Part shown: piece by piece, positions 6,992 through 39,085 of the stretch | How positions within the stretch are numbered: the first letter of the stretch is position 1 | How the letters are laid out: every line of letters starts with the position of its first letter | Assembly (NCBI GenBank): GCA_003158745.1 | Contig: PMLC01000041.1 | Coordinates: 38,848 to 77,932 of the forward strand | Direction: 5' to 3' | DNA: 39,085 nucleotides | Source of the DNA: Acidobacteriota bacterium | GTDB lineage: Bacteria > Acidobacteriota > Thermoanaerobaculia > Thermoanaerobaculales > Thermoanaerobaculaceae | Translations under genes and position numbers: made by a program | The notes under the pieces: generated by a model | Databases searched by the model: none | The model's input: only the letters and a program-made list of their open reading frames with translations | What the model was told of the DNA's origin: nothing

Positions 6992-7024
6992 TGTCTTCCC
7001 GCGACACGATGTCGCGCCGTCAGG

Positions 7025-10901: not shown

Positions 10902-11011
10902 CGTCTCGCAATGGAAGTCAGTGTCCGAGCTCGGAACGTCGTGCAACATTCGGGTGGCCCCCTACAGCGAGTCAGCGACGCCTGCTGCTCCCCGCACCCT
11001 TCCGTCGACCA

Positions 11012-12430
11012 CTACAGGCTGTAGTACAGCTCGATCTCGTACGGGTGCGGGCGGTTGCGGACCTCTCGGTCCTCCAGGCGCTTGCGCGCGATCCAGCGTT
11101 CGATGAGGTCGCGGCTGAAAACGTCGCCATCGAGCAGGAACTCGTGGTCGCTCTCGAGCGCGTTCATGGCTTCTTCGAGCGAGGTCGGCAGCGCCTTGAT
11201 CGAAGCCCGCTTCTCCGGCGGCCACGAAAAAATGTCCTCGTCCACCGGTCCGAACCCGAGCGCGGTCGGGTCGAGCTTCCGGCGCATCCCGTCGATCCCG
11301 GCCATCAACTGGGCCGCCACCGCGAGGTACGGGTTGCAGGTGGCGTCCGGCGGCCGGAACTCGAACCGGGAGCTCTCCGGGCGGTTGGCATACTTCGGGA
11401 TCCTTATCGCGGCTGAGCGGTTGCCGAGCGAGAAGATCGCGGAGACCGGGGCCTCGTACCCGGGGATGAGGCGGCGGTAGGAGTTGGTGGACGGGTTCGT
11501 GAACGCCATCACGGCGCCGCCGTGCAGCAGAAGACCGGCGATGAAGGAACGCGCGGCCTCGGAGGTCGTGCCATATCCGTCAGGATCGTGGAAGAGGTTC
11601 GTCTCGCCCTTCCAGAGCTGCTGGTGGAAGTGCAGGCCGGAACCAGCCTCGCCGTAGAGCGGCTTGGGCATGAACGTCGCAGTCATTCCCATCGCGGCCG
11701 CGGTCATTCTGGTCACGTACTTCACGAGCAGCACAGTGTCCGCGGCCACGAGCGCCGGCATGAAGCGGGTCTCGATCTCGCACTGCCCCGGACCCCCGAC
11801 CTCGTGGTGGTGGTACTTGACCTCGACGCCCATCGCTTGGAGGTTCAGGGTGATCCGCGTGCGGGCGTTGTGCAGGCTGTCCTGGGGTGGGATCGCGTGG
11901 TAGCCGCCATGGCGGGCGATGTTGTACCCGCTGCCGAGCTTGGCGCTGCCCCAATCGGCCTCCGAGGACTCGACCCGGTACGAGGCCACGTTCATGCCGT
12001 TCTCGTACGAGACCCCGTCGAACAGGTAGAACTCGAACTCGGGTCCCCACCGGCTCCAGTCGGCGACCCCGGTCGCCTGGAGTTGCGCCTCGGCGTTGCG
12101 AGCGATGTTGCGGGGGTCGTACGGGAACCGCTGGCGGGTGTCCGCCTCGAGGGTCGTGCAGATGAAGGAGAGGGCCGGCACCTCCCCAAACGTATCCACG
12201 AACCCGGTGGCGAGGTCCGGGACCATCACCATGTCGCCCGCGCTCACGGTCTTGAAACCGACGCTCGAGCCGTCGAACCCAACGCCCTTCTCCATCGTGC
12301 CCGAGTTGAAGCGTGCCGACGGGATTGTGACGTGGTGCCAGCGCCCCCACACGTCGCAGAACTTGAGGTCGACCACCTCGATCCGCCGTTCACGCACGAA
12401 TGACTGGGCTGCCTCGAAGTCCTGGAACAT
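11012..12430 (-). CDS. glnA: Type I glutamine synthetase
   Basis: Makes glutamine from glutamate, ammonia and ATP in the cytoplasm, the main entry of ammonia into metabolism. The 472-aa length is normal for GSI. Motifs in order: GVGFDGSS near the N-terminus, GPEFEFYLFD, HHHEVGGPGQCEIE, the ATP-binding KPLYGEAGSGLHFHQ, NPSTNSYRRLIPGYEAP and RFEFRPPDATCNPYLA. The stretch matching the E. coli adenylylation site reads DEDIFSWPPEK, with Phe401 where E. coli has Tyr397, so AMP control by GlnE appears impossible. The ATG at 12430 has GGAGGA eight bases upstream. An in-frame GTG at 12478 would add 16 Arg-rich residues unlike the family. A leader hairpin and a possible sigma-54-type promoter lie upstream. 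Confidence 0.97.
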   Translation of the reverse strand: MFQDFEAAQSFVRERRIEVVDLKFCDVWGRWHHVTIPSARFNSGTMEKGVGFDGSSVGFKTVSAGDMVMVPDLATGFVDTFGEVPALSFICTTLEADTRQRFPYDPRNIARNAEAQLQATGVADWSRWGPEFEFYLFDGVSYENGMNVASYRVESSEADWGSAKLGSGYNIARHGGYHAIPPQDSLHNARTRITLNLQAMGVEVKYHHHEVGGPGQCEIETRFMPALVAADTVLLVKYVTRMTAAAMGMTATFMPKPLYGEAGSGLHFHQQLWKGETNLFHDPDGYGTTSEAARSFIAGLLLHGGAVMAFTNPSTNSYRRLIPGYEAPVSAIFSLGNRSAAIRIPKYANRPESSRFEFRPPDATCNPYLAVAAQLMAGIDGMRRKLDPTALGFGPVDEDIFSWPPEKRASIKALPTSLEEAMNALESDHEFLLDGDVFSRDLIERWIARKRLEDREVRNRPHPYEIELYYSL

Positions 12431-12478
12431 GCCGACATCCTCCGGGCGCCGCCTCACTCGATGGGCCCGGCGGCGCAA

Positions 12479-12501
12479 ACACCCGGCTCCACGCCGGGTG
12501 T
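12479..12501 (-). other. Nine-bp hairpin in the glnA leader
   Basis: ACACCCGGC (12479-12487) and GCCGGGTGT (12493-12501) form a perfect 9-bp stem with loop TCCAC. On the minus strand it is followed by TTGCG, too short a U-run for a confident terminator. It sits 49 bases before the glnA ATG, in the 5' leader if the promoter is at 12512-12540. It could be an attenuator or an mRNA-stabilising structure. Confidence 0.5.
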
Positions 12502-12511
12502 CGTCGCGGCC

Positions 12512-12540
12512 ATGATATCCAATTCACAAGCGCGGAGCCA
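12512..12540 (-). promoter_or_regulatory. Candidate glnA promoter (sigma-54-like, overlapping a -10-like element)
   Basis: On the minus strand TGGCTCC-GCGC-TTGTG (12526-12540) resembles the -24/-12 consensus TGGCACG-N4-TTGCW, but the -12 has GT where GC is expected. A TATCAT -10-like hexamer lies at 12512-12517 without a convincing -35. Sigma-54 control of glnA is known in many proteobacteria; here it is only a possibility. Confidence 0.25.
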
Positions 12541-12570
12541 GAAGGCAGGGATCAGGGGTCCGTAACGACA

Positions 12571-12652
12571 AGCAGAGGAGCGGAGGGGCTGAGGAGCGGA
12601 GGAGCCAGAGACAGTTAAGAGTGAAGAGTTGAGAGTGAAGAGTTCAGAGGCA
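12571..12652. repeat. Purine-rich degenerate intergenic repeat (glnA upstream copy)
   Basis: Begins with AGCAGAGGAGCGGAGGGG (12571-12588), followed by a second partial copy, GAGGAGCGGAGG. It then has alternating GAGTGAAGAGTT / GAGAGTGAAGAGTT words to about 12652. The 18-base opening word recurs at 24665 and 38908. The rest of the 423-base gap between glnA and the next gene (12653-12853) shows no gene or structure I can support. Confidence 0.75.
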
Positions 12653-12853
12653 CAACAGGTACCGCTTGCAAGGAACGCGTGCCACCGGATGACCGGAGAA
12701 GCAGTGGTCCACGATCATAGGCCCGTGGTCCGCAAAGGGCGCGCGAACACACCGCGCAACCCGAAGGTGGATTTGCGTTCTTACGCCGAGGCCATCGGGG
12801 ATCTCGGAACACCGGGACAGGGATATCCGGCATCGCTGGATGAACCAACGAGG

Positions 12854-13807
12854 CTAATGCGGTCGCTGGACACTCGGTTCTCCAGCTGAAGACGCCTCCA
12901 TGCGTCCGAGCCATGAATCAATTCGCTCCTCATAGCGTTGCATGGTCGAGATCGAGGTGGTTGTCGCCGTGCCGCTCGCCTGGCGAACTTTCTTGTCGAG
13001 CTGCTCTTGTCGCTTGACGATATCCTTGATCGACGCACAACCGGGGTTGCGACGTGGGGCAAAGGTATCGACTGCGCACACGTAGGTGGCGATGTCACCG
13101 ACGACCTTCTGGAACGCCGCGTCAGTGTTCATCCTGTCGCGGAAGTCAGCATCCTTCATTGCGGCGAGACGCTCACTCGCCAAGCGGTTGGCGTCCTCTC
13201 GATCGCTTGCACCTGCTCCGAGTTCCAGGCGCACAAGCAGCTCTGGAAGAGGAAAAGCCGAGCGAACCTCTGCAGACTCCTCTGGGTAGTGTGCCTCGAT
13301 CAAGGGCTTGAGCTCAGCGAGACCATCGATAGCGGCCGCCCCAATCGCGGTCTGGCGGAGCAGCGGCCAGCCGTGCTGGAGTGTCGTCCGGCCCTCGACG
13401 ATGGCGGCTGAATAGATCCGCAGCCTCTCGTCACGTGACATGCGGCCGAGCTCAACGCTATCGAGGAACCACCCCACGTTCCGCGATGTGGGATTGTTGC
13501 TCCGCCCAAACTCGGTGATGATGTCCTCGAACGGCCGCAGATCCAGCCAGCGACTGTTCATTCCAAGATACCCCAACACCTCGTTGGCCACGTTGGCCTT
13601 GCTCTCAAGCAGACCCTTCCGGATCGCCTCGCGAAGCGCTGATTCGCGCGCAATAGGATCCGAAAGCGTTGCTGCATCATCGATCGCTTGCTTCCCGGGA
13701 AACACAATTACCGGATTATTTGGCGATTCGGCACCCGTGTACTGTGCCGCCGCCAAGCTGGTCAGGAAAACCAGGCATACGGTCGCGAGCCGCGAGAGCA
13801 TGTTCAC
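12854..13807 (-). CDS. Orphan exported helical protein, function unknown
   Basis: A 317-aa protein that I do not recognise. It has a clear signal peptide (MNMLSRLATVCLVFLTSLAAA, cleavage before QYTG) and no other membrane segment, so it is periplasmic or secreted. The mature part is predominantly helical, charged and free of low complexity. Two cysteines about 15 residues apart (YVCAVDTF...NPGC) could form a disulfide. A GTG start at 13807 has AAAGGAG at ideal spacing; an ATG at 13801 with GAGGTGA is nearly as good. Base composition looks less GC-rich than the neighbours and both flanks are repeat-rich, which may point to acquisition by transfer. It is transcribed alone. Confidence 0.75.
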   Translation of the reverse strand: MNMLSRLATVCLVFLTSLAAAQYTGAESPNNPVIVFPGKQAIDDAATLSDPIARESALREAIRKGLLESKANVANEVLGYLGMNSRWLDLRPFEDIITEFGRSNNPTSRNVGWFLDSVELGRMSRDERLRIYSAAIVEGRTTLQHGWPLLRQTAIGAAAIDGLAELKPLIEAHYPEESAEVRSAFPLPELLVRLELGAGASDREDANRLASERLAAMKDADFRDRMNTDAAFQKVVGDIATYVCAVDTFAPRRNPGCASIKDIVKRQEQLDKKVRQASGTATTTSISTMQRYEERIDSWLGRMEASSAGEPSVQRPH

Positions 13808-14000
13808 CTCTGCACTCCTTTAATTTCTAGCTTACACCCTTTCACCTCCCCACACAGGACCTTCACGCTGGTTGCATTTTGGAGCACTGCCTTGGCGCAT
13901 GGCGTCCAGCGGCGCCGCCGGGGAGACAGGGGCTCGGACACCGGGCTCCGAGGCCGAAAAAGGCCGACGCCGCAGGACCGAAGGCAGGGCAATGCCACAA

Positions 14001-24664: not shown

Positions 24665-24857
24665 AGCAGAGGAGCAGAGGGGCGGAGGAGCGGAGGGGAC
24701 AAAACAAGACTGTTTGAAGGTTCGGAGGTTCGAAGGTTCGACGAGAAGAGGTAAAAGGTCAGACGTCAAAGGTCAAACGGAAAACGACGACATTCACCTG
24801 AGAACCGAGCTGGCTTTCTTGTCGTTCCTTTGACGTTTCCCTTCTGACGTTTGACCT
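24665..24857. repeat. Composite degenerate intergenic repeat, left of the macroglobulin operon
   Basis: In order: AGCAGAGGAGCAGAGGGG (24665-24682), more of the same purine words to 24698, three tandem GRAGGTTC octamers (24716-24739), and GGTCAAA words (about 24757-24778). An inverted-sense stretch with TTTGACGTTTCCC (24829-24841) and TGACGTTTGACC to 24857 completes it. The GGTCAAA and TTTGACC parts could pair. The same order and orientation recur at 38908-39055. Together with promoters and a leader it fills the 538-base gap 24606-25143. Confidence 0.8.
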
Positions 24858-24931
24858 CTACCTTCTCCCTTCTCACGTTTGACCTCCCGCCAGTACCAGA
24901 CGTCGTACGTTCGAGGTTCAACCGGCGGCGG

Positions 24932-24959
24932 TTGCCGGGAGCATGGACTGGGGTAGAAT
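24932..24959 (+). promoter_or_regulatory. Candidate promoter of the macroglobulin-PBP1C operon
   Basis: TTGCCG (24932-24937), a 16-base spacer, and TAGAAT (24954-24959). The mRNA would start near 24966, giving a leader of about 178 bases before the first ATG at 25144. Confidence 0.5.
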
Positions 24960-25036
24960 CCCTGAAAATTGTGAACGCACACACATGACGCCTGCGCAAG
25001 GGACGGAACCGGTGATCTCGACCGTCGACCACACAT

Positions 25037-25057
25037 CGGGACCGACGATTGGTCCCG
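25037..25057 (+). other. Hairpin in the operon leader
   Basis: CGGGACC (25037-25043) and GGTCCCG (25051-25057) form a 7-bp stem with a 7-base loop, followed by GAGTTCCAG, so it is not a terminator. It lies about 87 bases before the start codon and may influence mRNA stability or translation. Confidence 0.4.
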
Positions 25058-25143
25058 GAGTTCCAGACCATCACAACGGAGTTCAAGTGCGAATAGACGC
25101 ATTAGCGAAGCAACGAACTCGCAGTCCGCAGGAGGGCTCACCG

Positions 25144-28100
25144 ATGACAAACTCCCCCGCCGCCTCTGGTGCACGGCCCGTTTTCCTTTTCCGTCGCAAG
25201 GGAACGATCGCAGCGGCACTTGCCGCCTCCCTGGCCGCCGCGGTCGCCGTCGCCCAGGCGCCGCCGAAGGCCAAGGCGACCCTCTCGCGGACGAGCGTTC
25301 CCGCGGCGGGGCGGCAGGAGGCGATCGTCAAAGTCTCCGCGTTCGGCTACTACGCCCTCACGGTCGCGAGCTCGCAGGGCACGTCGCTGCAGCTCGTGGA
25401 CCGCATGGCGGGCCCGGGGCTGCAGTCCGGCGAGGCCGGGACCAAGGATGGACGACTCGACCTCTTCCTCGACCGCGGCGAGTACAAGCTCATCGCGCTC
25501 GGTCACGAGAAGGCCTCGGGGAACGCCAGGCTCGAGGTCAACCCGTACACCGAGCTGCACGCCCCGCAGCCGCCGCTGCTGGTCGAGCTCAAGCCGATCG
25601 ACGAGACGCTGCAGGACTTCCAGCAGGCGTCGTACTGGCTGCAGGTCGACGAGGCCCGCGTGGTCGCGATCGAGGCCGCCGGGCGCAACCTCGCCGACCT
25701 CCGCCTCTGGCGCGACGGCACCTGGCTTCACGAGGCAGTGCCGGAGCGCGAGCCGATCGAGCCGAAGAAGGGGCACCCAATGCGGGTGTGCCGCCTCTCG
25801 ACGCACCTCGAAGCCGGGTTGTACCTGGTCACCGCGTACGGCGGCCCCGGCCAGCCCTGGTCGGAGGACGCGAGCGAGCATCCGCTGTACGTGCGGTTCG
25901 GCATCCCGAGGCTCCCGCAGGCCGGGCGCCAGCGGTTGACGGTCGGACCGCTCGGCTACGACCGGTTCCTCGCGCCCGGCGACACGACGTACTTCCGCGT
26001 CGAGCTGCCCGAGGCGAGGCCCGCGCAGCTGCAGGTCGGGCAGGCCGATCCTGACCGTCCGCTCCATAACGAGGGTTCGGTCGCAGAGATCACAAAGAAG
26101 TCGTTGCCGCCCGCCGCCGAGGCGGAGATCGGCAAGACGCCCGACCACGACCGCGTCGTGACCGTGCGCGCAGAAGCCGGACAGCCATACATCCTCCAGC
26201 AGTTCGAGGCGAGCAGGACGTACGAGTTTAGAAAGACCGGCGATCACTGGATCTCCACGGTGCACTCCGGGCACCCCGAGGACTCCGTGGACGCCACCGT
26301 GATCGTGGCTCGCTGGTCCGACCGCATTAAGGATCGCGAGGCCTTTCTGGACCAGGCCGTAGAGGTCGACGGCACGCACGGTTGGGCGCGTCGCTGCAAC
26401 CTGCTCGACACGATGACCATTTTCCTCAAGGTCGGGGCGAAGGGACGCTACGAGGTGCTCTCGCGCGGCGTCGAGGCGACGTTCCGCATCGAGCCCTTCT
26501 TCACCTGGCGACCCGAGCATTACGAGAGCCCGAAAGCGAAGCCGAGCGGCTCCGCCTGGGACCTTGACGCCGGATTCTACGTGCTCGGCGTGTTTCCTGA
26601 CACGAAAGGCATCCTCGACATCGTCGTACGGCCGTACGGCGTCCTCACGTACGCCCTCGAGAAGCTCGGCAAGGAGGCCGGGACGCAGCAGACCCCGCTG
26701 CGGGCGGCGGCTCTGTTCCCCCGGGTGACTCTCAACACCGACGACTACTACATGGCCTACCTCAACGACCAGCCCGGCGTTCGCGCCGGCGTCGTGCTGC
26801 GCCCGCTGCCCCTCGACCTCACCGAGGCGCTCCCCGTCACACAGCGACCCGGCGAGGATCTGAAAACCACCTTCAAGGCGGATGAGCGCGGGACTCTTCG
26901 AGCCCGCGACGAGGCGGGGACCTTGATCGACGTTTCGGTCGATGGCGGGGCGCCCCGGAAGGAAACCGTGGTCGAAGAGGGCGAGCACACGCTGAGCGTG
27001 TCCAACGCGGGAGCGGCGACCGTTCTCTACTCCCTCGCGCTCGAACCCGTCCGTCTCCAGGCCGCGGCGCCGTTGCCCCCGGTGCCGCCCGAAGCGCTCG
27101 AGGCGCTCCCCAAGTTCCCGACCCTGACCGCGGGGGCGCCGACCTTCCTCGACATGGAGAGTTCCGAGAGCGCAACGTTCCTCGTGCGCGCCGACGCCCC
27201 GGCGCTGTACCGCCTCGAGTCCACCGGCCTGCTCGCCACCGAGGGCAACGTGCGCACCCGTACCGTGCTCTCGCTCGACCGCCAGGCCGCCAACGGCGTC
27301 GGCCGGAACTTCCTGATCCAGCAGTACCTCCGCGAGGGCGAATACCAGCTCACCGTGCAGCCCGAGGGGGCGTCGGCCGGGCACCTCGGCGTCAAGCTCG
27401 AGAAGACACTGATCACCGACGGCGGGCTCCTCGCGCCCTCGGTCCCGGCCCGCATCTCGCTGCCGGCCGGCCAGGGCGTCGCGTATCGCTTCACGATCGA
27501 AAGCCGCGGCGAGTACCACCTACGGACGCTGGGACTCGGGCACGACTTCCGCTGCCGCCTCGAGGACGCGGACGGGTGGCCGATCGAGCCTCCCAACATC
27601 CGGGCCGACATCACGCGCACGTTCGAGCCGGGCGGCTACCGGCTCGTGCTCCTCCCCGAGGACGTCATGACCCGGCGCGTCACCGTCCTTGAGAAGGCCC
27701 CGGAGCCGCTGCACTTCGCGGGCCACGGCCCCCATCAGCTCCCGTTGGACCGCCAGGTCGACCACGTGTGGGAGCAGGCATCGGATGGCGGCCGGCAGAC
27801 CCCCGACGTATGGGAGTTCTCCCTGCCCGCCACGGCGCGCACTCAGGTCGACCTCTCCGCCGTGATGAACGGAGAGCTCGAGCTGGTCGGAGGCGAGGGC
27901 GCGGGCAAGGTCGGCGACCTCACTCTCGGAAAGGGCTGGTCCGGCGAGCTGAAGGCCGGGAGTTATCGCCTCTCGGTAGTGTGCGCGCGCAACAACAACC
28001 AGGTCGGGTACCGCCTCGCCGTCAAGCCGGGGCCGCTGGTCGCGGGTCTCACCCGGGAGATCAGCGCCCCGGATTCGATCGGCCTCGCCGTCGGCCGCGC

Positions 28101-30549
28101 CGGGCTGGTGGAGCTCTCATCGTTCGGCAGCGACGACGTCCGCGCCGTTCTGCTCAGCCCCAAGGGCCGCGTCCTCGCGTCCAACGACGACCGCCCCGAC
28201 GACTGGAACTTCCACATCGCCACATCCCTCGAACCCGGGAACTACACGCTGCGCGTGATCCCCGTGGGGGCCGGACGCGCCACGTGCGCGGTGTCGATGC
28301 GCACCCCCGGCGAAGCCGCCGAACCGCCTCTCGCGGTTCCTGGGCGCCGGGAGATCGAGACGGGCCAGGCCGCCCACGTCGTTCCTCTCCAGCTGCCTGG
28401 AGGAGCCGAGCTCCTGGTCGCGAGCGTGCGCTCGGCGGAGAGCGTGGGCTGCGTGCTGGAAGCGCAGTCCGAAAAGGGCTGGCGGCCCCTCGCCACACGG
28501 GTCGGGCGCGACCTGCGCCTCGAAGTGCCCCTGCGGGGGCCTGAGCTTGCCAACGGATCGACCGCGCTACGAATGCGGGTCTGGTCGGTCGACCAGCGCG
28601 GGTTGCCGGCTCGGCTTGTCGTCGCGGCAGTCGCGCCGGGGACGGTCAGCGAGGCCGCCCTCGGTTCCGGTATCGACCTGGGCCCGGTGGCCGGCAGCGA
28701 CCCGCCGGTCGGGGCGGCGCTCGTTCATCTCGAGCGCCCCGGGATGTTCCTCCTTTCCGCGGCGGAGGTGCGCGCGACCTCTCGAACGGCGCGCGCCGCC
28801 GAGTCCAGCGCGGGGGAACCCGTCGCGGCGGCCGGTTCGTCGCTCTGGCTGGTCAGCGACATCACGCCCGGCGCCCGCGCCTCCGTGCGGGGATCCCGGA
28901 TGGTCGTGGAGGCGGGCGGAAGCGTCGCGCTCCGCGTGCCGCCGGGAGAACCGGTGGTGTGCGATCTGGGAGGCGGCGAAACCCGGACCGTGCTGGCCGT
29001 CGCCAGCAGCATGAGCGGGCAGCCGGGGGCGCGGATCGTCGACCGGGCCCATCCGAGCGACGCAGGCGCCGGCCCCGTCGCGATGGCGGTCGGGCGCCAC
29101 GGCGCCGTGGCCGTAGCCGTCGGCGTCCGCCAGGTCGCGGCCGCCGTCTGGCAGGCCGAGCCGTCCGTTGAGCCGATCGAGGTCCGCCTGCAGCAGTTCA
29201 GCTACCCGGCACGCCAGCCGGAGCCCGCGCCGTTCGGGACCCTGAGCGGGTCGGTCGCCGGTCGGAACGGCGTCGCTTACGACCTTCCGCCCGGACCGAA
29301 GCGCTTGCAGCTAGGTCTCGGCGAAGGCATCGTGGCGGTCCTCTCGAGCGACAAGGGCATCGAGAGCGTGCACTGGGCCGGAGGGCCGGCGTTCGCCGAG
29401 AGCCTCGACACGTCCGCGACGAAGATGGTCCTCCTGCGGGCAGGGAGCGACAGGGGCAGCTTCTCGATCAACGTCCTGCCGCCGTTGCAGGCCGATTCGG
29501 CGCTCACCCTGGGCACCGAGCGCCCATTCGAGAGCGTGGAGGCGGCCGCTGGGATCCTCAGGCTGACGGTGCCGAAGCTCGACGTGACGGCCGACCACCC
29601 ATACACCGTGCACATCCGCGGCACGAGCGAGGCCGTCTTCCTCGGCGCCGACGGTCGCGTCCGGCACGGACGGGAGATGACGGTCGGCAGCTCCGGCGGA
29701 AGCCTGCTCCTCTCGCACGGGCCGGGACGCCTGCTCTGCTGGCTCGACCGCGCCGGCGATCTCGCCGAGGCGCTCTGGGGCCTCGTCGGGAACCTCACGG
29801 CAACGACCATCGATCCGCCGGCAACGCTGGCACTCCACGGCAAGGCGATGATGGTTCGCGTCAACCTCGGACACCCGGCTTTGCTTCATCTGCGGACAGC
29901 CACGCCGGTGGCCACGCGACTGGTGCGGCCCGGGGGCGAGCCCGAGATCGCGCTCCACCCCAACGGCTGCTCGCTCGACGCCTACCTCCCATCCGGGACT
30001 GCGGAACTGGGCCTGCGGGCCGTGTCGGGGCTCGAGCTCGCGGGCAGCGCCGAGCTGACGGCGACCGGACTCACCTCGATCGATGAGGGCCTCGGCCCGG
30101 AGCTGCTTTTGCCTCCGGGCGAGACCCGCGCCTTCAGCTTCACCGTGACCCTCGAGGGGCCGGTCGGGGTCGGCGTTCGCGCCGACTCGGACACGGTGAC
30201 GTGCAAGCTCCTCGACAGCGCGGGGCGTCCGCTCGGGTCGGGCGTGGTCTTGATGACGAAGCTGACGCCGGGCGAGTACGTGCTCACCGTGCACGCGCCG
30301 GCCCGGAGCGCGCCGGCGAGGGTTCGCCCCGCGGTCGTCGGCATCCGGCCACCCGACACCGGGCCGCCGCCCGAGGTGATCCGCAAGTACCTGGAGCTGG
30401 CCACAGGAAAGAGCGAGGCCTCGGCCGCGACGGCGGCGCGAGGACAGACGCCGAGCGAGCAGGAAGAGACCGAAGAGGCACAGCCCGGCGAAAGCGAGGA
30501 GCCCGGCGAGGGCGAGGAAGCCCCGGAGCCCCCGGGAGGTGCGCGATGA
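25144..30549 (+). CDS. 1801-aa exported multi-beta-sandwich protein, first gene of the macroglobulin-PBP1C operon, function unknown
   Basis: I do not recognise a named family. A basic N-terminus and hydrophobic stretch (FRRKGTIAAALAASLAAAVAVAQA) form a signal peptide. The rest is beta-rich, with repeated closing strands of form G-x-Y-x-L near residues 112, 225, 477, 732, 830, 939, 1033 and 1709 (for example GGYRLVLL, GNYTLRVIP, GEYVLTVH). Around 990-1040, NDDRPDDWNFH...LEPGNYTLRV resembles pre-peptidase C-terminal (PPC) domains. A Glu/Pro-rich tail (EQEETEEAQPGESEEP) ends the protein. No peptidase, glycosidase or thioester motif is visible. The ATG at 25144 has GGAGGG eight bases upstream; an open frame back to 24943 lacks a signal peptide start. 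Its stop overlaps the macroglobulin ATG (ATGA), so the two are translationally coupled. A periplasmic scaffold or partner of the macroglobulin is the simplest inference. Confidence 0.85.
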   Translation: MTNSPAASGARPVFLFRRKGTIAAALAASLAAAVAVAQAPPKAKATLSRTSVPAAGRQEAIVKVSAFGYYALTVASSQGTSLQLVDRMAGPGLQSGEAGTKDGRLDLFLDRGEYKLIALGHEKASGNARLEVNPYTELHAPQPPLLVELKPIDETLQDFQQASYWLQVDEARVVAIEAAGRNLADLRLWRDGTWLHEAVPEREPIEPKKGHPMRVCRLSTHLEAGLYLVTAYGGPGQPWSEDASEHPLYVRFGIPRLPQAGRQRLTVGPLGYDRFLAPGDTTYFRVELPEARPAQLQVGQADPDRPLHNEGSVAEITKKSLPPAAEAEIGKTPDHDRVVTVRAEAGQPYILQQFEASRTYEFRKTGDHWISTVHSGHPEDSVDATVIVARWSDRIKDREAFLDQAVEVDGTHGWARRCNLLDTMTIFLKVGAKGRYEVLSRGVEATFRIEPFFTWRPEHYESPKAKPSGSAWDLDAGFYVLGVFPDTKGILDIVVRPYGVLTYALEKLGKEAGTQQTPLRAAALFPRVTLNTDDYYMAYLNDQPGVRAGVVLRPLPLDLTEALPVTQRPGEDLKTTFKADERGTLRARDEAGTLIDVSVDGGAPRKETVVEEGEHTLSVSNAGAATVLYSLALEPVRLQAAAPLPPVPPEALEALPKFPTLTAGAPTFLDMESSESATFLVRADAPALYRLESTGLLATEGNVRTRTVLSLDRQAANGVGRNFLIQQYLREGEYQLTVQPEGASAGHLGVKLEKTLITDGGLLAPSVPARISLPAGQGVAYRFTIESRGEYHLRTLGLGHDFRCRLEDADGWPIEPPNIRADITRTFEPGGYRLVLLPEDVMTRRVTVLEKAPEPLHFAGHGPHQLPLDRQVDHVWEQASDGGRQTPDVWEFSLPATARTQVDLSAVMNGELELVGGEGAGKVGDLTLGKGWSGELKAGSYRLSVVCARNNNQVGYRLAVKPGPLVAGLTREISAPDSIGLAVGRAGLVELSSFGSDDVRAVLLSPKGRVLASNDDRPDDWNFHIATSLEPGNYTLRVIPVGAGRATCAVSMRTPGEAAEPPLAVPGRREIETGQAAHVVPLQLPGGAELLVASVRSAESVGCVLEAQSEKGWRPLATRVGRDLRLEVPLRGPELANGSTALRMRVWSVDQRGLPARLVVAAVAPGTVSEAALGSGIDLGPVAGSDPPVGAALVHLERPGMFLLSAAEVRATSRTARAAESSAGEPVAAAGSSLWLVSDITPGARASVRGSRMVVEAGGSVALRVPPGEPVVCDLGGGETRTVLAVASSMSGQPGARIVDRAHPSDAGAGPVAMAVGRHGAVAVAVGVRQVAAAVWQAEPSVEPIEVRLQQFSYPARQPEPAPFGTLSGSVAGRNGVAYDLPPGPKRLQLGLGEGIVAVLSSDKGIESVHWAGGPAFAESLDTSATKMVLLRAGSDRGSFSINVLPPLQADSALTLGTERPFESVEAAAGILRLTVPKLDVTADHPYTVHIRGTSEAVFLGADGRVRHGREMTVGSSGGSLLLSHGPGRLLCWLDRAGDLAEALWGLVGNLTATTIDPPATLALHGKAMMVRVNLGHPALLHLRTATPVATRLVRPGGEPEIALHPNGCSLDAYLPSGTAELGLRAVSGLELAGSAELTATGLTSIDEGLGPELLLPPGETRAFSFTVTLEGPVGVGVRADSDTVTCKLLDSAGRPLGSGVVLMTKLTPGEYVLTVHAPARSAPARVRPAVVGIRPPDTGPPPEVIRKYLELATGKSEASAATAARGQTPSEQEETEEAQPGESEEPGEGEEAPEPPGGAR

Positions 30550-33500
30550 ATGCGGCACCGCTGCCGGCAACCCACTGGCCTACAACCTCGCTGACGACTC
30601 GACAGACGGGAAAGGCGGGAAGCATGAGAGCCTCGATGCATCGCCTCGCGGGCGTCGTCCTCACACTGGCTGCGGCGCAGTTGCCTGGGCTCGCGGTGCA
30701 CGGACAGAGCAAGGCTGCAAACTACGTGCCCCCGCTCGTCCGCCCCGCCGGGGCCACGGGAACAGTCGTGGTGCCCGACCGCTTCCTGCGGCGGTGGGAC
30801 CCGGTGACGGTGTTCTTCGCCCGCGACGTCGGGCCCGCCAAGGGAGGCCCGGAGGACCGGCCCGAACGGTTCGTGACCGCCAACCCGCCGCACCCGGGGG
30901 CGTTCACCTGGCTCGACGCACGCACGCTGCAGTTTCGCCCGGCCGAGCCGTGGCCACCGCTGGAGCGCTTCACGTGGACGGTGGACGGGAACACGGCCCG
31001 CTTCGCCACACTCATGGAGCCGCCCACCGGCACCATCCCGTCGAACAACGCCGAGAGGCTCGAGGCCGTCGATTCGATCTCGCTGACGTTCGCCGAGCCC
31101 CTCGACGAGCTGTCCCTCGTGCGCATGGTCACTGTCGAGCTCCGCTCCCTCCCGGGGATCGGTCCCGAGGGGAGCCGGTGGCTGAAGAGCGACGACTTCA
31201 CGCTCAAGGTCATCGAGCGCAAGAGCAGCTCCGACGCCGCCACGTACGTGCTCAACCTGAGAAGCCCGATCCCGCTGGGGATGCGGGCGATCGTCCACCT
31301 CCGTCTCTCGCTCGAGGACGACCCGACACTGTCGTTCACCGAGGTCACGTTCTCCACGGCCGAGCCGTTCCGCGTGGCCTCCTTTGGGTGCGACGCCGTC
31401 CAGGTGCCGGTCACGCCGGAGGGGAACCGGTACGCCCGCGAGCAGGCGCTGCGCTGCGACCCCAACAACCGCAGGCTCGTCGTGCGCTTCTCCTCGGCGC
31501 CGAGCGGGCTCGGCCCGGTCGAGGCGCGCAACCTCGTCCGCCTCACGCCGGCGGTTGACAACCTCTCCTACGGCACCGGCAACGCGTTCCTCACGGTCGC
31601 CGGTAACTTCGCCGCGGAGACCCTGTACCGCGTCACGCTCGTTCCCACGCCGATCAAGGACGCCAACGGCAGGACGCTCGACATGCGGGGCGAGAGCGAG
31701 GTGTACGTCGCGTTCCCCCGTAAGAACACGTACCTCGACCTGGGCGCCTCCCGCGGGATCCTCGAGCGGTTCGGACCCCAGATGGTCCCGCTGGCAGGGC
31801 GCGGCGACGAGCGGGTGGACCTGCGCATCCATCGGATCGACCCGCTCGACCGCTCCTTCTGGCCTTTCCCCGACCGTCCGATCGAGGTGGACGAGGCCGA
31901 CCGGCCACCCGGACCGGGCGAGCGCCCGAAGCCGTTCACCGCGCCCGATCAGTCGATCGACAGCCGCGAACTCTCCGACCAGATCCAGGCTCTCGGCACG
32001 CCCGCCGTCTCGGCGATCGTCAAGCTCCCGCTGCGCCGGGAGGGCAGCGCGGCGACGTTCGGGCTCGACCTCGAGCCGCACCTCGCGTACGCCGGCGGCA
32101 AGGGCCAGCCGGGCACGTACCTCGTCGGAATACGGCGGCTGGACGGCGGGAGCCGGCGTTCATGGATGCGCGTCCAGGTCACCGACCTGGCGCTCGCCAC
32201 CGCCGAGGAGCCCACGGCTGCGCGCTTCGTCGTCACCTCTCTGTCCACCGACGCGCCGGTCGGCGGAGCCCGCGTCCGCGTCGAGGGCTCCGTCGCGGAG
32301 GGGGCCGACACGAAGTGGGAAACGCTGTTCGACGGGGTCACGGACGCCCAGGGGACGGCGACGTGGCAGGCGCCGGGCAACGATCCCCATAAATCCGTCG
32401 AGGTGCGACGCATCGTCGTGCAGAAGGGGGTCGACCTGCTCGTCCTCGACCCCCGACGAGCCCCCGACGGCTACGCCGACGGCCGCTGGAGCCCGACGCA
32501 CCAGCCCTGGCTGCAGTGGACCCAGGAGGTCCTGACGGAACGCCAGGCAGCGGCGCAGACGCTGTGCCACATCTTCACCGAGCGGCCCGTGTACCGGCCG
32601 GAAGACACCGTCTACATCAAGGGCTACGTCCGCATCCGCGAGCGCGGCACCCTGAAGCCCCCGGCGATGAGCGGCACCGTCGTGGTCGAGGGCCCCGGCG
32701 ATCTCGTGTGGCGCTACCCCACCACGCTTTCGGCGATGGGCAGCTTCTACCAGGCGTTCGCCGCCGAAAAACTGCCGACCGGCGTGTACCACGCCCGCTT
32801 CGAGACCGCCAAAGGAGCGACGCTCGGCCGGGTGTCGTTCCGCATGGAGGCGTACCGCATCCCCGAATTTGAGGTGCAGCTCCACGCCCCCGACCGCACG
32901 CCGCTCGACCGCGAGTTCAAGGTCGGGCTGACGGCGACGTACTACGCGGGCGGGCAGGTGGCGGCGCAGCCGGTGCGCTGGCGGGTCACCCAGTTTCCCT
33001 ACACCTGGACGCCGAAGGGCCGCGAGGGGTTCCAGTTCTCCTCGGACGCCCGCTACTCCTCGGGCGGCCGCTTCGAATCCTCCTCCACGCTGCAGCGCGA
33101 CGAGGTCACCGACAAGGACGGCGCCTCGTCGCTCGTCATCAACCCGGCCGCCGAGGTGACGGCGCAGCCGCGAACCTACGTGGTAGAAGCGACGGTGACA
33201 GGAGCCAACGACCAGACGGTGACGGCGGTCGAGCAGGTCACCGCCCTCCCGCCTTTCGTTCTCGGGCTCAAGCTCCCCCGTTTCATCGAGCGGGCCACGA
33301 CGATCGAGCCGGAGATCATCGTCCTCGGCCACGACGACGCCCCCCTGGCCGGCCAGGCCGTCACGGTGCGCATGCTCCACCGCCAGTGGCACTCCGTGCT
33401 GCAGGCGAGCGACTTCTCCGAAGGGAAAGCGCGCTACGTGACCGACGTGGTCGATGAGAAGGTGTTCGAGACCAAGATCACGAGCGGCGCCGACGTGATC

Positions 33501-36440
33501 AAGCTTCCCATCCCGATCAAGGTCGCAGGCGTCTACGTGGTGGAGCTGGAGGCGGCGGACCGCCTGGGCCGCAGCCAGACCGTCTCCCTCGACCTCTACG
33601 CAGGCGGCGAGGAGCCCGTCAACTGGTCGAAGCCGACCACGCCGGTCTTCACCGTAAGCAACGACAAGGCCACCTACGACCCCGGCGACACCGCAAACCT
33701 GGTGCTTCAGAGCCCGTTCCAGAAGGCGATGGCCCTTGCGATCGTCGAGGCGCCCGACGGGAACGAGTACCGGTGGGTCCCGGTCGAGGGCGGGGCAGCT
33801 TCGTTCCAGGTCCCCGTCCGCTCGACCTACGTGCCCGAGCTGCCGGTCCACTTCGTGCTCATGCGCGGCCGGGTCCCCGGCACATCCCCCGGGCCGGGGA
33901 GCGCCAGCGACCTCGGCAAGCCGGCCACCATGGCGGCGACCACATGGTTGAAGGTCAACCCGGTGGACAACCGCGTCGTGGTCAAGCTCGAACATGCGGC
34001 CAGGGCGCTGCCGGGGCAGAAGATCTCGGTGACGATTCGCCTCTCGGACCCGCACGGCAAGCCGCTTCCCGGCGAGGTCACGCTCTGGCTCGTCGATCAG
34101 GCGGTGCTGGCCCTCGGCAAGGAGCAGCGGCTGGATCCGCTGCCGGACTTCATCACGCCGGTGGTCTCGCGACTCGCCGTGCGCGATACCCGGAACCTCG
34201 CCTTCGGGCAGCTCGCCTTCGCGGAGCTTCCCGGCGGCGACCGCGGGGCGCGCGAGCACGGCCTCCTGGCCCGCATGACCGTGCGCAAGAACTTCAAGAC
34301 CGTGCCGTACTACAACCCGGCGATCGAGGTGGGCCCTGACGGGACGGTCACGGTGACCGTCGAGCTGCCGGACAACCTGACCAACTTCATGATTCGCGCC
34401 AAGGCGGTTTCCGGTCCCGACCGCTTCGGGATCGGGACCTCCGAGATCGCGGTCCGGCTGCCGGTGATCGTGCAACCGGCGCTGCCGCGCTTCGTCCGTC
34501 CCGGTGACACGTTCACTGCCGCCGCCATCGGCCGCGTGGTCGAGGGCGAAGGCGGCCCGGGCAAAGCCGAGATCCAGGTGAAGGGCGTCGAGCTCAAGGA
34601 GCCCGCGACCCGCGACGTGACCTGGGTCGCGAACCACCCCGAGCGTCTCGACTTCGGGGTCAGCGTCCCGACGCCGCCGCTCGACGACCAGGGCGCCCTC
34701 TCATATCAGGAGGTGCTGTTCCGCGTCGGCGTGGAGCGGACATCCGACGGCGCGCGCGACGGCTTCGAGGTCTCCCTGCCGATCCGCGACGACCGCAGGC
34801 CGGCCTCGCTACGCCAGCTGGCAGAAGTCGAAGCAGGAAAGCCGCTCGCCATTCCAGCGATCCCCGAGGAAGCCCGGCCCGGCAGCGTGCGGCGGGCGAT
34901 CCTCATCTCCGACCAGCCCGGACTCGTGCGCATGGCCGCCGGGTTGAACTTCCTGCTCACCTACCCGTACGGCTGCACCGAGCAGCGGATCAGCTGCGCC
35001 CGCGCTGAGCTCGCCCTCAAGAAGTTCCGCGCCCTGCTGCAGCAGCGCGGCTCCGACGAGGATCTCGACCGGGCCGTTCGCCAGACCCTCGAGTGGATCC
35101 CGAGCGTGGTGGACGGCGCGGGCCTCACGGCGTACTGGCCCGGCTCCACAGGCTACGTCTCGCTCACCGCGTGGGTCGTGCAGTTCCTGGTCGAGGCGAA
35201 GGATGCCGGCTACCGGGTCGATCCCAAGCTCCTCGACGCGCTGACCGACAGCCTCGAGAAGGCGCTGCGCTCCGACTACTCCCGCTTCATCGACGGCGAG
35301 TCGTTCGCCGAACGGTGCTGGGCACTGGTGGCGCTCGCCCAGGCCGGGAAGTTCAACCCGAGCTACGCCGCGGAGCTGGCGCGGAAGGCGCAGTTCCTCG
35401 ACCTCGAGGCGGTCGCCGGCGTCCTGCAGTCGTTCGCCCGCAACGGCGACGTTTCCTCGGCGACGAGCAAGGAGCTCGCCGCTCGCCTGTGGGACGGCGT
35501 CGTCGTGCGGCTGTGGCAGGGCCGCGAGGCGTACGGCGGGCTGCAGGCGACGGCACACGCCCGCAACGGGCTCATCCTCCCCAGTGAGACGCGGACGGTC
35601 GCCGAGGTGACCCGGGGCCTGGCGCGAACGGACGCCAAGAACCCCCGCCTGCAGGTCCTCATCGACGGGCTCGTCAACCTCGGCCGCGACGACGGCTGGG
35701 GCACGACCAACGCCAACGCATCGGCGCTCCTGGCCCTCGCCGAGCTGCTGCAGCCGCCGTTCGCCGGAAGCAAGCCCCACACCGCGCAGGTGCGCTTCGG
35801 TGATGAGCGCAAGACCGTGACGCTCGGGCAGGCCAACCCGGTCGGCGCCGTGGTCTCGGCCGGGGTCGGCGGCGGCGAGGTCACCCTGGATCCCGGCGGG
35901 GAGGGCCCCGTCGTCGTGCGGGTCGAGACCACCTACGTCCCGCGCCAGGACGGGAGCAAGGTCGCACCTGCGGCGGCGGGGTTCGTCGTCACGCGGGAGC
36001 TCCTGCGCCAGCGCGGCGGCGGCGAGCCGCCCGAAAAGGTCACACTCTCGGAGGCCGGCCAGACCGTCGGCCTCTCGGTCGGAGACGTTGTGGAGGACCA
36101 CGTCCAGGTCGTGAACCCCGGCGACCGCTTCTACGTCGCGATCGTCGTGCCGCTGGCGGCCGGCATGGAGCCGCTCAACCCCAACCTCACGACGGCGCCG
36201 CCGGAAGCCAAGCCCACCGGAGCGCTCACCCTGGTCCCGACGTACGCCGCGTACATGGACGACGGCGTGTCCTTCTACTACAACTCGCTGCCCAAGGGGA
36301 CGTACGACTTCTACTTCCGCACGCGTGCGACGATCCCAGGCAGCTTCATCCAGCCGCCGGCGCAGGCCGAGTTGATGTACGACGGCGCCGTCCGCGGCAA
36401 CGGGTCGGGAGCAAGGATCGAGGTGACGCGGAAGCCGTGA
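30546..36440 (+). CDS. Bacterial alpha-2-macroglobulin with active thioester motif
   Basis: A 1964-aa protease trap of the periplasm. After cleavage in its bait region it covalently captures the attacking protease through a Cys-Gln thioester. The thioester motif is intact: YPYGCTEQ, Cys1477 (34974-34985). The MG2-type domain (VYRPEDTVYIKGYVRI, near residue 683) and the A2M domain (VTVELPDNLTNFMIRAKAVS, near 1260) are clear. E. coli YfhM is 1653 aa and a lipoprotein. This one is longer and has no lipobox, so it is probably soluble. ATG 30546 has GGGAGGTG and overlaps the upstream stop. ATG 30624 would start directly at the signal peptide (MRASMHRLAGVVLTLAAAQL) and may be the true start. The pbpC ATG follows 25 bases after its stop. 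Confidence 0.93.
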   Translation: MNAAPLPATHWPTTSLTTRQTGKAGSMRASMHRLAGVVLTLAAAQLPGLAVHGQSKAANYVPPLVRPAGATGTVVVPDRFLRRWDPVTVFFARDVGPAKGGPEDRPERFVTANPPHPGAFTWLDARTLQFRPAEPWPPLERFTWTVDGNTARFATLMEPPTGTIPSNNAERLEAVDSISLTFAEPLDELSLVRMVTVELRSLPGIGPEGSRWLKSDDFTLKVIERKSSSDAATYVLNLRSPIPLGMRAIVHLRLSLEDDPTLSFTEVTFSTAEPFRVASFGCDAVQVPVTPEGNRYAREQALRCDPNNRRLVVRFSSAPSGLGPVEARNLVRLTPAVDNLSYGTGNAFLTVAGNFAAETLYRVTLVPTPIKDANGRTLDMRGESEVYVAFPRKNTYLDLGASRGILERFGPQMVPLAGRGDERVDLRIHRIDPLDRSFWPFPDRPIEVDEADRPPGPGERPKPFTAPDQSIDSRELSDQIQALGTPAVSAIVKLPLRREGSAATFGLDLEPHLAYAGGKGQPGTYLVGIRRLDGGSRRSWMRVQVTDLALATAEEPTAARFVVTSLSTDAPVGGARVRVEGSVAEGADTKWETLFDGVTDAQGTATWQAPGNDPHKSVEVRRIVVQKGVDLLVLDPRRAPDGYADGRWSPTHQPWLQWTQEVLTERQAAAQTLCHIFTERPVYRPEDTVYIKGYVRIRERGTLKPPAMSGTVVVEGPGDLVWRYPTTLSAMGSFYQAFAAEKLPTGVYHARFETAKGATLGRVSFRMEAYRIPEFEVQLHAPDRTPLDREFKVGLTATYYAGGQVAAQPVRWRVTQFPYTWTPKGREGFQFSSDARYSSGGRFESSSTLQRDEVTDKDGASSLVINPAAEVTAQPRTYVVEATVTGANDQTVTAVEQVTALPPFVLGLKLPRFIERATTIEPEIIVLGHDDAPLAGQAVTVRMLHRQWHSVLQASDFSEGKARYVTDVVDEKVFETKITSGADVIKLPIPIKVAGVYVVELEAADRLGRSQTVSLDLYAGGEEPVNWSKPTTPVFTVSNDKATYDPGDTANLVLQSPFQKAMALAIVEAPDGNEYRWVPVEGGAASFQVPVRSTYVPELPVHFVLMRGRVPGTSPGPGSASDLGKPATMAATTWLKVNPVDNRVVVKLEHAARALPGQKISVTIRLSDPHGKPLPGEVTLWLVDQAVLALGKEQRLDPLPDFITPVVSRLAVRDTRNLAFGQLAFAELPGGDRGAREHGLLARMTVRKNFKTVPYYNPAIEVGPDGTVTVTVELPDNLTNFMIRAKAVSGPDRFGIGTSEIAVRLPVIVQPALPRFVRPGDTFTAAAIGRVVEGEGGPGKAEIQVKGVELKEPATRDVTWVANHPERLDFGVSVPTPPLDDQGALSYQEVLFRVGVERTSDGARDGFEVSLPIRDDRRPASLRQLAEVEAGKPLAIPAIPEEARPGSVRRAILISDQPGLVRMAAGLNFLLTYPYGCTEQRISCARAELALKKFRALLQQRGSDEDLDRAVRQTLEWIPSVVDGAGLTAYWPGSTGYVSLTAWVVQFLVEAKDAGYRVDPKLLDALTDSLEKALRSDYSRFIDGESFAERCWALVALAQAGKFNPSYAAELARKAQFLDLEAVAGVLQSFARNGDVSSATSKELAARLWDGVVVRLWQGREAYGGLQATAHARNGLILPSETRTVAEVTRGLARTDAKNPRLQVLIDGLVNLGRDDGWGTTNANASALLALAELLQPPFAGSKPHTAQVRFGDERKTVTLGQANPVGAVVSAGVGGGEVTLDPGGEGPVVVRVETTYVPRQDGSKVAPAAAGFVVTRELLRQRGGGEPPEKVTLSEAGQTVGLSVGDVVEDHVQVVNPGDRFYVAIVVPLAAGMEPLNPNLTTAPPEAKPTGALTLVPTYAAYMDDGVSFYYNSLPKGTYDFYFRTRATIPGSFIQPPAQAELMYDGAVRGNGSGARIEVTRKP

Positions 36441-36465
36441 CCGTGAGCGCGTGACCGGAGACGAG

Positions 36466-38886
36466 ATGTCGCGACGCGTCGTGCGGGGGTTGGCGGGGGC
36501 AGGCGGCCTGGCGTTCCTGGGTTGCCTGACCCTCGTTGCGGTCGCGGTATGGCGCGCGACCCTCGCGGCGCCGCCGGCCACCATCCTCCTGCGCGACCGG
36601 CACGGCGCGTTCCTCGCCGAGGTCAGCCCTGAGCCCGGCCAGGAGCTCGGGTACTGGTCGGTCCAGGCACTGCCACAGAGAGTTGTCGCGGCCACCGTTG
36701 CCCTCGAGGACCGGCACTTCTGGAGCCACCCGGGCGTCGACCCGCGTGCGGTGGCTCGCGCGTTCCTTCAGAACGTCCGTAACGGCCGGAGGGTGTCCGG
36801 CGCGTCGACGCTCGCGATGCAGGTGGCGCGAATGCAGAATCCGGGCGGGAGGTCGTACCTCCGCAAGGCGGTCGAGGCGCTCACCGGCGTGTTCCTCACC
36901 GCCCGCTACGGCCGCGAGGCGGTCCTCGCGCAGTACCTGCGCCTTGCCCCGTATGGAAACCGCATCCACGGCATCGCGTACGCCGCCCGTCGCTACCTCG
37001 ACAAGCCGGTCGAGGACCTCTCCTGGGCCGAGATCGCCTTCCTCGCGGCGCTGCCGCAGGCGCCGGCCAGGATGAACCCCTTCGACCGCGACGGGCAGAA
37101 GCGCGCGATCATTCGTGGCCGTCGCCTCCTCGGGCTGCTTCGCGAGCAGGGCGTCGTCAGCGAGGCCGAGTACGAACTGGCCGGGGCGCAGCTCGCCGGT
37201 CTGACCGTGCCTGGGCACGAGAAACGGCCGCTGGTCGCCCTGCACGAGATCCTCCGCTACGAGAAGGACCTGCGCGAGCGGGTCGCGCGCGGCGCCGTCG
37301 CAACCCCGATCGTCGCGACCACGCTCGATCTCGGGCTGCAGGAACGTGTCGCGGGCGTCGCTGCCAACGCGGTCGCGGGCTGGGACGACCGCGGAGCCGG
37401 CAACGCCGCCGTGGTGGTCGTCGACCGGCGCACGCGCGAGGTGCTGGCCTGCGTCGGCTCGACGGGATTTTTCGACAGGTCACGGCGCGGCTCGATCGAC
37501 TTCACCCGCGTGCCGCGCTCGCCGGGGAGCACCCTCAAGCCGCTCCTGTATGCCCTCGCCCTCGACCTCGGCGTCATCACGCCGGCCACCGTCCTCGACG
37601 ACCTCCAGCGCGGCCCCGGAGGGATCGTCAACGCGGACGACGACTACCTCGGCCCGCTTTTGCCCCGCGCGGCCCTGGCCAACTCGAGGAACGTGCCTGC
37701 CGTCGACCTCCTGGCCAGGCTCGGGATCGAGGAGGGGTACGCCTTCCTGCGCGACCTCGGCATCGGCGACGGCCGTCTGCCGGCGCGCTCGTACGGGCTC
37801 GGGCTCGCGGTCGGCGGAATGCCGGTCACCCTGGAGCGGCTCGTCCGCGGCTATACGGTGCTCGCCGGCGACGGCCGCCTCGCGGACCTCATCTGGTACC
37901 TCCACACGGAGGAGGGCCGGCCGCGACGGGTGCTGTCCGAGGACACGGCGCGGCAGATCTCGCTCTTCCTCGCCGATCCTCTGGCCCGCCTCCCGACCTT
38001 CCCGCGGATGGGTGCGTCCGAATACCCCTTCCCGGTGGCGGTCAAAACCGGCACCTCGCCCGACCAGCGCGACGCCTGGGCGATGGCGTACTCCATGCGT
38101 TACCTGGTCGGCATCTGGGTCGGCCGCGCGGATTACCGCCCGATGACCGGCCTCACCGGGTACACGAGCGCGGCGCACATCGCCCATCGGATCCTGCTCT
38201 CGCTCCACGCCGACCAGCAGGACGGCCTGGTGGACCTCTCGTTCCCGCCGCCCGCGGGGTTCCGCGAGGTTCGCCTGTGCGCGGTCACCGGGCACGTCGC
38301 GTCGCCCCTCTGCGACCGCACCACCACCGAGTGGTTTCGCCCCGGCACCGAGCCGGTCGCCACATGCGGCGCGCACGTCCGGGTCGCGATCGACGAACGC
38401 AACGGCAGAGTCGCCTCGTCCTCGACCCCCGATCGCTTCGTCGACGTGAGGACCTTCACCCTCCTCGCTCCCAGGTACGCCTCGTGGGCAGCCGGACACG
38501 GCGTGCCGCAGCCTCCGGCGAGTATCGGCACGCTGGCGGCGCAGGGGCAGCTCGGGGGCGTGTCAGCGGCGGCGGACCGGGATGCGGTCCCCGGGCCGCC
38601 TCCCTCCGCGCCCAAGGCGGTGCGCCTGCACGTCGCGTCGCCCCGCAACGGCACTCGCCTGCTCCGCGACCCTGAGACGCCGACCAGCCTCGGGACGCTG
38701 GCCCTGCAGGCGGTCGTCGAGCCGCCCCCGCCCCAGGTCGTCTGGTTCGTTGACGGCGCGCCGTTCAAGGTCGCGGACTACCCGTACGAGGTGCGGTGGC
38801 CGCTCGCCTCCGGCGAGCACAGCTTCCAGGTGCGCGTGCCGTTCACAACGATCGTCTCCTCGCCGGTCCGCATCACGGTCCAGTAA
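36466..38886 (+). CDS. pbpC: Penicillin-binding protein 1C (class A, glycosyltransferase-transpeptidase)
   Basis: An 806-aa bifunctional murein synthase anchored in the inner membrane by one N-terminal helix (GLAGAGGLAFLGCLTLVAVAV). The glycosyltransferase motifs are EDRHFWSHPGVD from residue 82 and SGASTLAMQ from 111. The transpeptidase motifs are STLK with active Ser355, SRN at 407-409 and KTGTS from 527. The C-terminal part (HVASPRNGTRLLRDP to WFVDGAPFK) matches the PBP1C C-terminal beta domain. Pairing with alpha-2-macroglobulin is the well-known yfhM-pbpC arrangement, thought to combine protease trapping with wall repair. ATG 36466 has GGAG six bases upstream; a GTG at 36451 is in frame but lacks a site. 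Confidence 0.96.
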   Translation: MSRRVVRGLAGAGGLAFLGCLTLVAVAVWRATLAAPPATILLRDRHGAFLAEVSPEPGQELGYWSVQALPQRVVAATVALEDRHFWSHPGVDPRAVARAFLQNVRNGRRVSGASTLAMQVARMQNPGGRSYLRKAVEALTGVFLTARYGREAVLAQYLRLAPYGNRIHGIAYAARRYLDKPVEDLSWAEIAFLAALPQAPARMNPFDRDGQKRAIIRGRRLLGLLREQGVVSEAEYELAGAQLAGLTVPGHEKRPLVALHEILRYEKDLRERVARGAVATPIVATTLDLGLQERVAGVAANAVAGWDDRGAGNAAVVVVDRRTREVLACVGSTGFFDRSRRGSIDFTRVPRSPGSTLKPLLYALALDLGVITPATVLDDLQRGPGGIVNADDDYLGPLLPRAALANSRNVPAVDLLARLGIEEGYAFLRDLGIGDGRLPARSYGLGLAVGGMPVTLERLVRGYTVLAGDGRLADLIWYLHTEEGRPRRVLSEDTARQISLFLADPLARLPTFPRMGASEYPFPVAVKTGTSPDQRDAWAMAYSMRYLVGIWVGRADYRPMTGLTGYTSAAHIAHRILLSLHADQQDGLVDLSFPPPAGFREVRLCAVTGHVASPLCDRTTTEWFRPGTEPVATCGAHVRVAIDERNGRVASSSTPDRFVDVRTFTLLAPRYASWAAGHGVPQPPASIGTLAAQGQLGGVSAAADRDAVPGPPPSAPKAVRLHVASPRNGTRLLRDPETPTSLGTLALQAVVEPPPPQVVWFVDGAPFKVADYPYEVRWPLASGEHSFQVRVPFTTIVSSPVRITVQ

Positions 38887-38907
38887 CCGCGCCGGTACGA
38901 AAAGAAC

Positions 38908-39055
38908 AGCTGAGGAGCAGAGGGGAGAAGGACTACACGTTCGAGAGTTTGGAGGTTCGAAGGTCCGGAGGTTCGACGGACGCAGGTCAAAGGGACGACT
39001 CAACCGGTCCCACCCAATTCGGTCGCGGTTCTTCGTCTCTCATTTGACGTTTCCC
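38908..39055. repeat. Composite degenerate intergenic repeat, right of the macroglobulin operon
   Basis: AGCTGAGGAGCAGAGGGG (38908-38925), three tandem GRAGGTYC octamers (38951-38974), GGTCAAA (38984-38990) and TTTGACGTTTCCC (39043-39055). These are the same words in the same order and orientation as at 24665-24857. The copy may continue past the window end. No gene is seen in 38887-39085. Confidence 0.8.
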
Positions 39056-39085
39056 CTTTTGCCTTTAGGGGTATGCACTTGACTC

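Follow-up and report, generated by a model that had tools for sequence, protein, structure and literature searches.

Type I bacterial alpha-2-macroglobulins (A2Ms) trap proteases via a thioester and are paired with PBP1C, and a joint defence-and-repair role has been proposed for the pair (PMC4498604, PMC5764988). Thus, in E. coli (yfhM/ECAM-pbpC) and Salmonella (Sa-A2M), a thioester A2M with a bait region is followed by PBP1C (PMC4498604). The Type II macroglobulin MagD is encoded in the magABCDEF operon of P. aeruginosa; its operon partners bind, place and stabilise it, with MagB being required for its stability (PMC5764988), and it confers protection from certain T6SS effectors that target peptidoglycan (PMC12663445). 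The known Type I unit has so far consisted of A2M and PBP1C only, and the placement and targets of bacterial thioester macroglobulins are unsettled.

Here, we analysed a window of 39,085 nucleotides from a genome of Acidobacteriota (contig PMLC01000041.1), in which a large exported protein, labelled BSP in this work, is encoded directly in front of a thioester A2M and PBP1C. We propose, with a probability of roughly 0.6, that BSP is an obligate, non-enzymatic third component of one distinct Type I A2M-PBP1C lineage that spreads horizontally, most likely serving as a scaffold or recognition subunit. This third component is apparently undescribed: a search of the open-access literature, with subscription papers outside its scope, found no publication on the three-gene unit.

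Gene organization of the cassette

The features of the locus, in window coordinates, are as follows.

25144–30549, + strand: BSP, exported tandem beta-sandwich protein of 1801 aa (predicted), first gene of the cassette
25144–25263, + strand: signal peptide region of BSP, its sole high-hydropathy segment; lipobox absent
28066–28308, + strand: best PPC-like domain of BSP (residues ~975–1055), with invariant D1015, D1016, W1021 and N1022
30055–30345, + strand: last conserved beta-sandwich of BSP (residues ~1638–1734); nearest folds collagenase CBD/PPC (Z ~12) and PliG (Z 11.6)
30424–30546, + strand: acidic Glu/Pro tail of BSP, not conserved among homologues
30546–30549, + strand: ATGA stop/start overlap from BSP to A2M, of the same kind in 11 of 17 loci measured
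30546–36440, + strand: thioester (Type I) A2M; its signal peptide has no lipobox
34971–34985, + strand: GCTEQ thioester motif of A2M (residues 1476–1480)
36451–38886, + strand: PBP1C, bifunctional transglycosylase/transpeptidase; alternative start ATG 36466

A preliminary description of this DNA had reported the 1801-aa frame and its overlap with A2M at 30546–30549, and both the coordinates and the ribosome-binding sites bear this out. Thus, a Shine-Dalgarno GGAGG, rated good to strong, precedes ATG 25144 (a program-made list of open reading frames puts the start farther upstream, at 24943), and the A2M start is provided with a GGGAGG of its own. From this overlap, and from it only, equimolar expression of the two proteins may be supposed. 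PBP1C had been placed 25 bases behind A2M, which is right for ATG 36466; with GTG 36451 the gap is 10 nt. Upstream, the stretch 24700–25200 that separates BSP from the divergent gene showed no terminator-like site, and a single, weak promoter-like site lies at 24932. Both would fit a transcript that starts with BSP, although as evidence they are weak. At the other end, the contig stops about 200 bases behind PBP1C (38886–39085), leaving the right border of the cassette out of sight.

The window A2M belongs with Type I. Its matches to PF07703, PF00207, PF17973 and PF01835 are above the Pfam cut-off (bait region, A2M, bacterial MG/bMG10), it carries a CXEQ motif, and pbpC comes next. Type II shares with this locus that a macroglobulin is encoded together with partner proteins (PMC5764988); MagD, however, has no CXEQ, its operon has no PBP1C and its partners are of 26–60 kDa, whereas the A2M here (GCTEQ) is flanked by PBP1C and a 190-kDa beta array. 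Compared with the Type I units, the cassette differs in having BSP in front and in its A2M, which falls in a separate group (~25% identity to the BSP-less A2Ms of its phylum) and has no lipobox, unlike the E. coli A2M with its lipid anchor at the inner membrane.

The same holds across the lineage: all BSP-linked A2Ms in which the motif region was inspected carry CTEQ or CAEQ, and none of the N-termini read had a lipobox. Since most BSP-less A2Ms read in the window's phylum likewise have none, we treat the lipid anchor as variable rather than defining. It had been suggested that BSP anchors A2M in place of a lost lipid anchor. This was rejected, since hydropathy and lipobox inspection revealed neither a lipobox nor a second hydrophobic segment in BSP, and since the BSP-less A2Ms mostly do without a lipobox as well.

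Architecture of BSP

Export of BSP had been predicted, and a signal peptide is indeed present. Judged from repeats and folds, BSP is built as an array of diverged tandem beta-sandwich (PPC/CUB-like) domains. First, at least eight G-x-Y-x-L closing strands had been noted; we counted 11 copies of G-x-Y-x-[LIVF] against 0.9 expected from shuffles (maximum 5 in 2000), an approximately twelvefold excess that is more than chance would give. Second, profile self-comparison in 110-residue windows returned nine separate window pairs above 90% probability, whereas the reversed-profile control of the same windows peaked at 55% in 435 pairs, with none above 90%. BSP would thus consist, at least partly, of diverged copies of one domain, the clearest of which lie at residues 40–130, 645–840, 865–1055 and 1635–1735. 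Third, the AlphaFold model of residues 1050–1760 is good (mean pLDDT 82) and its domains are all-beta. Its best fold matches, tied within error, are clostridial collagen-binding/PPC domains (Z 12.3, 2.0 Å over 95 residues for 3jqw) and PliG, a periplasmic inhibitor of lysozyme (Z 11.6), and the Foldseek matches include tandem CUB domains (cubilin) and ColG. The model of residues 40–1060 is poor (pLDDT 60), for which reason an enzymatic domain may be hidden in residues ~260–650.

The likeness to bacterial collagenase collagen-binding domains and CUB arrays (Z ~12 by VIA; cubilin and ColG by Foldseek) thus concerns the fold of several BSP domains. Unlike those proteins, BSP is a free-standing long array in which no protease domain was found, and its sequence match stays below the Pfam cut-off: PPC (PF04151) scores 14.8 to 17.5 bits in the window BSP, against a gathering score of 25.9, with a sub-threshold match around residues 975–1055. 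Four of the seven homologues scanned over residues 40–1060 also match PPC (best E 6e-6), and internal-repeat and fold comparisons point to the same region. The PPC-like stretch proposed at ~990–1040 is therefore well placed.

Otherwise, searches of Pfam, NCBIfam, PHROGs, PADLOC and, by sequence, the PDB yielded nothing above threshold for the window BSP (in Pfam and NCBIfam, sub-threshold matches only), and no phage match was found. No family with an unrelated role came up, and BSP apparently belongs to no known family. Two candidate relationships were rejected. BSP is not a duplicated macroglobulin: no A2M, MG or bMG Pfam match occurs in it or in the aligned homologues, and the Foldseek matches to C3, C5 and A2M chains (TM-score ~0.1 or less, rmsd near 30–40 Å, low probabilities) are as expected of any string of beta-sandwiches. 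Likewise, six loci from one taxonomic family of the window's class (L009–L012, L034, L035) match only residues ~947–1055; they hold lone PPC-like domains, ~32–40% identical to BSP ~947–1054, in other proteins (frames of 890–1450 aa) that are not homologous to BSP along their length.

Among the homologues, residues 54–1060 and 1650–1745 are conserved and 1060–1640 variable. In one of them (L112, genome G652, 1265–5275), a short BSP of 1337 aa has no counterpart of window residues ~1080–1560, and A2M and PBP1C still follow; the middle beta region can thus be lost. The acidic Glu/Pro tail exists as described (of the final 41 residues, 12 are D/E). As a functional element it was rejected, since it is missing from many homologues and hence dispensable.

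Linkage of BSP to A2M and PBP1C

The preliminary description had named a survey of related genomes as a test of whether BSP is a new component of the A2M/PBP1C unit. We searched with BSP alone, so that linkage to A2M was not built in. The searches covered 60 relatives, a collection of 84,980 species genomes scanned for peptide patterns, 297 genomes of the window's phylum, 148 of another phylum and 72,556 plasmids; further samples comprised 398 and 247 genomes from two additional phyla, and 199 from a single order, with a profile as the query. Homologues with 28–48% identity were found in several phyla and on Rhizobium plasmids. They are rare and patchy: 18 of the 297 genomes of the window's phylum gave a match, lone-domain matches included, the samples of other phyla gave two to four genomes each, and none of the window's eight congeneric genomes has BSP. 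Seven Rhizobium plasmids carry it, one typed as conjugative and one as mobilizable.

In every locus where the contig continues behind BSP (26/26), A2M is the next gene on the same strand. These are the window, L014–L016, L018–L025, L038–L043, L089–L093, L112, L113 and L017, the last being a split BSP gene in genome G335 with its 3′ part on contig C24. PBP1C follows A2M in 21 of the 26; the contig ends first in four and another gene follows in one. In that locus (L040, genome G079, 7001–13899), BSP and A2M are followed by a metallo-hydrolase-like gene. Two more homologues, outside the readable loci, stop at a contig end. Besides the 11 measured cases, the stop/start overlap recurs in L112 and L113, and in no readable locus was BSP found beside a partner other than A2M. 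The survey thus came out in favour of a new component, and the identical place in every readable related genome gives BSP the look of a third, so far undescribed element in a bacterial system of self-protection.

These data bear on the possibility that BSP, made of PPC repeats, is an adhesion or matrix protein at the cell surface or outside the cell, its gene being no more than a passenger of the cassette. Domains with PPC/collagen-binding or CUB-like folds are able to bind both proteins and glycans, and the patchy, transferable distribution would also suit such a passenger. A passenger, however, would hardly be expected to keep a fixed order in 26 of 26 loci, frequently overlap the next gene and never appear with another partner; moreover, Pfam and NCBIfam revealed no surface-sorting domain in the window BSP. 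We consider this explanation unlikely.

A shared history of the three genes

Linkage was also examined from the side of A2M. Some A2M occurs in 112 of 197 genomes of the window's phylum. Close relatives of the window A2M (40–62% identity, >1400 bits) are confined to ten of the 197, all of which have a full-length BSP or a contig-cut part of one. The next A2Ms stand apart (25–30% identity, <320 bits), and many of these also precede PBP1C. Upstream of BSP-less A2Ms, no gene was common to the ten loci inspected, and another shared partner in that position was therefore rejected. In a tree of 40 A2Ms, a single branch (SH-aLRT 100; none of 500 shuffles as clustered) separates all 20 BSP-linked sequences from the others; the root is unplaced and the branches among BSP-less rows are long, so that the group is a clade only if the root lies outside it.

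The correlation of pairwise distances is 0.98 between BSP and A2M (20 loci; 0 of 999 Mantel permutations), 0.97 between BSP and PBP1C and 0.96 between A2M and PBP1C (15 loci), within an overall range of 0.96–0.99. Furthermore, the BSP tree joins loci of Nitrospirota, Elusimicrobiota and Thermodesulfobacteriota, with full support, beside one locus of the window's class, and the A2M tree groups the same loci. By these comparisons the three genes share one history, and the three-phylum grouping in both trees shows that the cassette has passed from one phylum to another as a whole. Individual cross-phylum cases could be overstated where metagenome contigs were misbinned; the Rhizobium plasmids are immune to this doubt because they are complete records.

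Within A2M, the N-terminal residues 70–540 are 41–50% conserved among BSP-linked sequences, nearly like the rest of the protein, whereas in BSP-less A2Ms they are 27–43% conserved and among the more variable parts. Being conserved specifically in the BSP-linked group, this region could hold a contact site for BSP.

Proposed role of BSP

From the pairing of Type I A2Ms with PBP1C and the need of MagD for its operon partners, we infer that BSP is the partner subunit of one Type I lineage, binding A2M and/or the wall. BSP and A2M would be co-produced and encounter one another in the periplasm. There, BSP, as a long scaffold or recognition subunit, would bind A2M (perhaps at the ~500 N-terminal residues of A2M, which are specific to the lineage) and/or targets in the cell wall. 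In this way BSP would keep the protease trap at sites of wall damage while PBP1C rebuilds the wall, in analogy to MagA, MagB and MagF serving MagD. That BSP binds or positions A2M, as had been suggested, is thus plausible; for a role as decoy or bait we found no evidence. Counting against a scaffold, most A2M-PBP1C units manage without BSP, L040 combines BSP and A2M without PBP1C, and the conserved operon place could also reflect action in parallel rather than binding.

The gene position, directly before A2M and overlapping it, together with the need of MagD for MagB (PMC5764988), would also suit a dedicated folding or export chaperone that is released once the large A2M has matured. An array of 1800 residues is costly for a chaperone, however, and thioester A2Ms of similar size exist without BSP in the same phylum. 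We regard this as the least likely of the explanations considered.

Action in parallel is the essence of the explanation that ranks second behind the partner subunit. Here, A2M traps proteases, BSP shields the wall as an anti-muramidase or peptidoglycan-binding arm without binding A2M, and PBP1C repairs. The rhizobial homologues provide a clue to such a cell-wall function: in L090, an LprI domain (PF07007; 33.2 bits over a cut-off of 22) lies between signal peptide and array, and L089, L091 and L093 show the same sequence if their reading frames are followed farther upstream than the annotated starts. The LprI family is tied to peptidoglycan metabolism (PMC7933661), MagD protects against wall-targeting effectors (PMC12663445), and the last BSP domain (residues ~1638–1734) resembles PliG, a g-type lysozyme inhibitor. 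The label ‘lysozyme inhibitor’, however, was given to LprI without direct proof, and the Salmonella LprI protein ScwA acts on wall metabolism and shows no lysozyme inhibition (PMC7933661); the clue therefore leads to the cell wall and only uncertainly to lysozyme. Moreover, the PliG likeness is one of fold, tied with plain PPC/collagen-binding domains (Z 11.6 against 12.3), and may reflect a shared fold only, and Pfam finds no LprI domain in the window BSP. A wall-shielding arm is thus a possible but clearly less probable role. The public annotation of L090 (13482–19127), ‘lysozyme inhibitor LprI family protein’, derives from the N-terminal domain only; its sister records, with the start placed later, read ‘hypothetical’.

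Returning to the partner subunit, a wider picture can be offered tentatively, as one we hold to be possible rather than probable: a three-part envelope-immunity cassette moving between phyla, in which a thioester protease trap and a wall-repair synthase are joined by a new ~190-kDa beta-array receptor or scaffold that directs the trap to attack sites or neutralises peptidoglycan-cleaving weapons. A co-inherited third protein offers a handle on both the placement and the targets of these macroglobulins. It allows one to ask whether Type I macroglobulins work in complexes as Type II do, and whether proteases, wall-cleaving effectors or both are what the unit protects the cell from. Owing to the presence of the cassette on Rhizobium plasmids, these questions are testable in culturable bacteria. 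On one such plasmid (L092, Rhizobium sp. C104, 13968–27433), BSP, A2M and PBP1C are all fragmented by frame changes, reflecting either decay or sequencing error.
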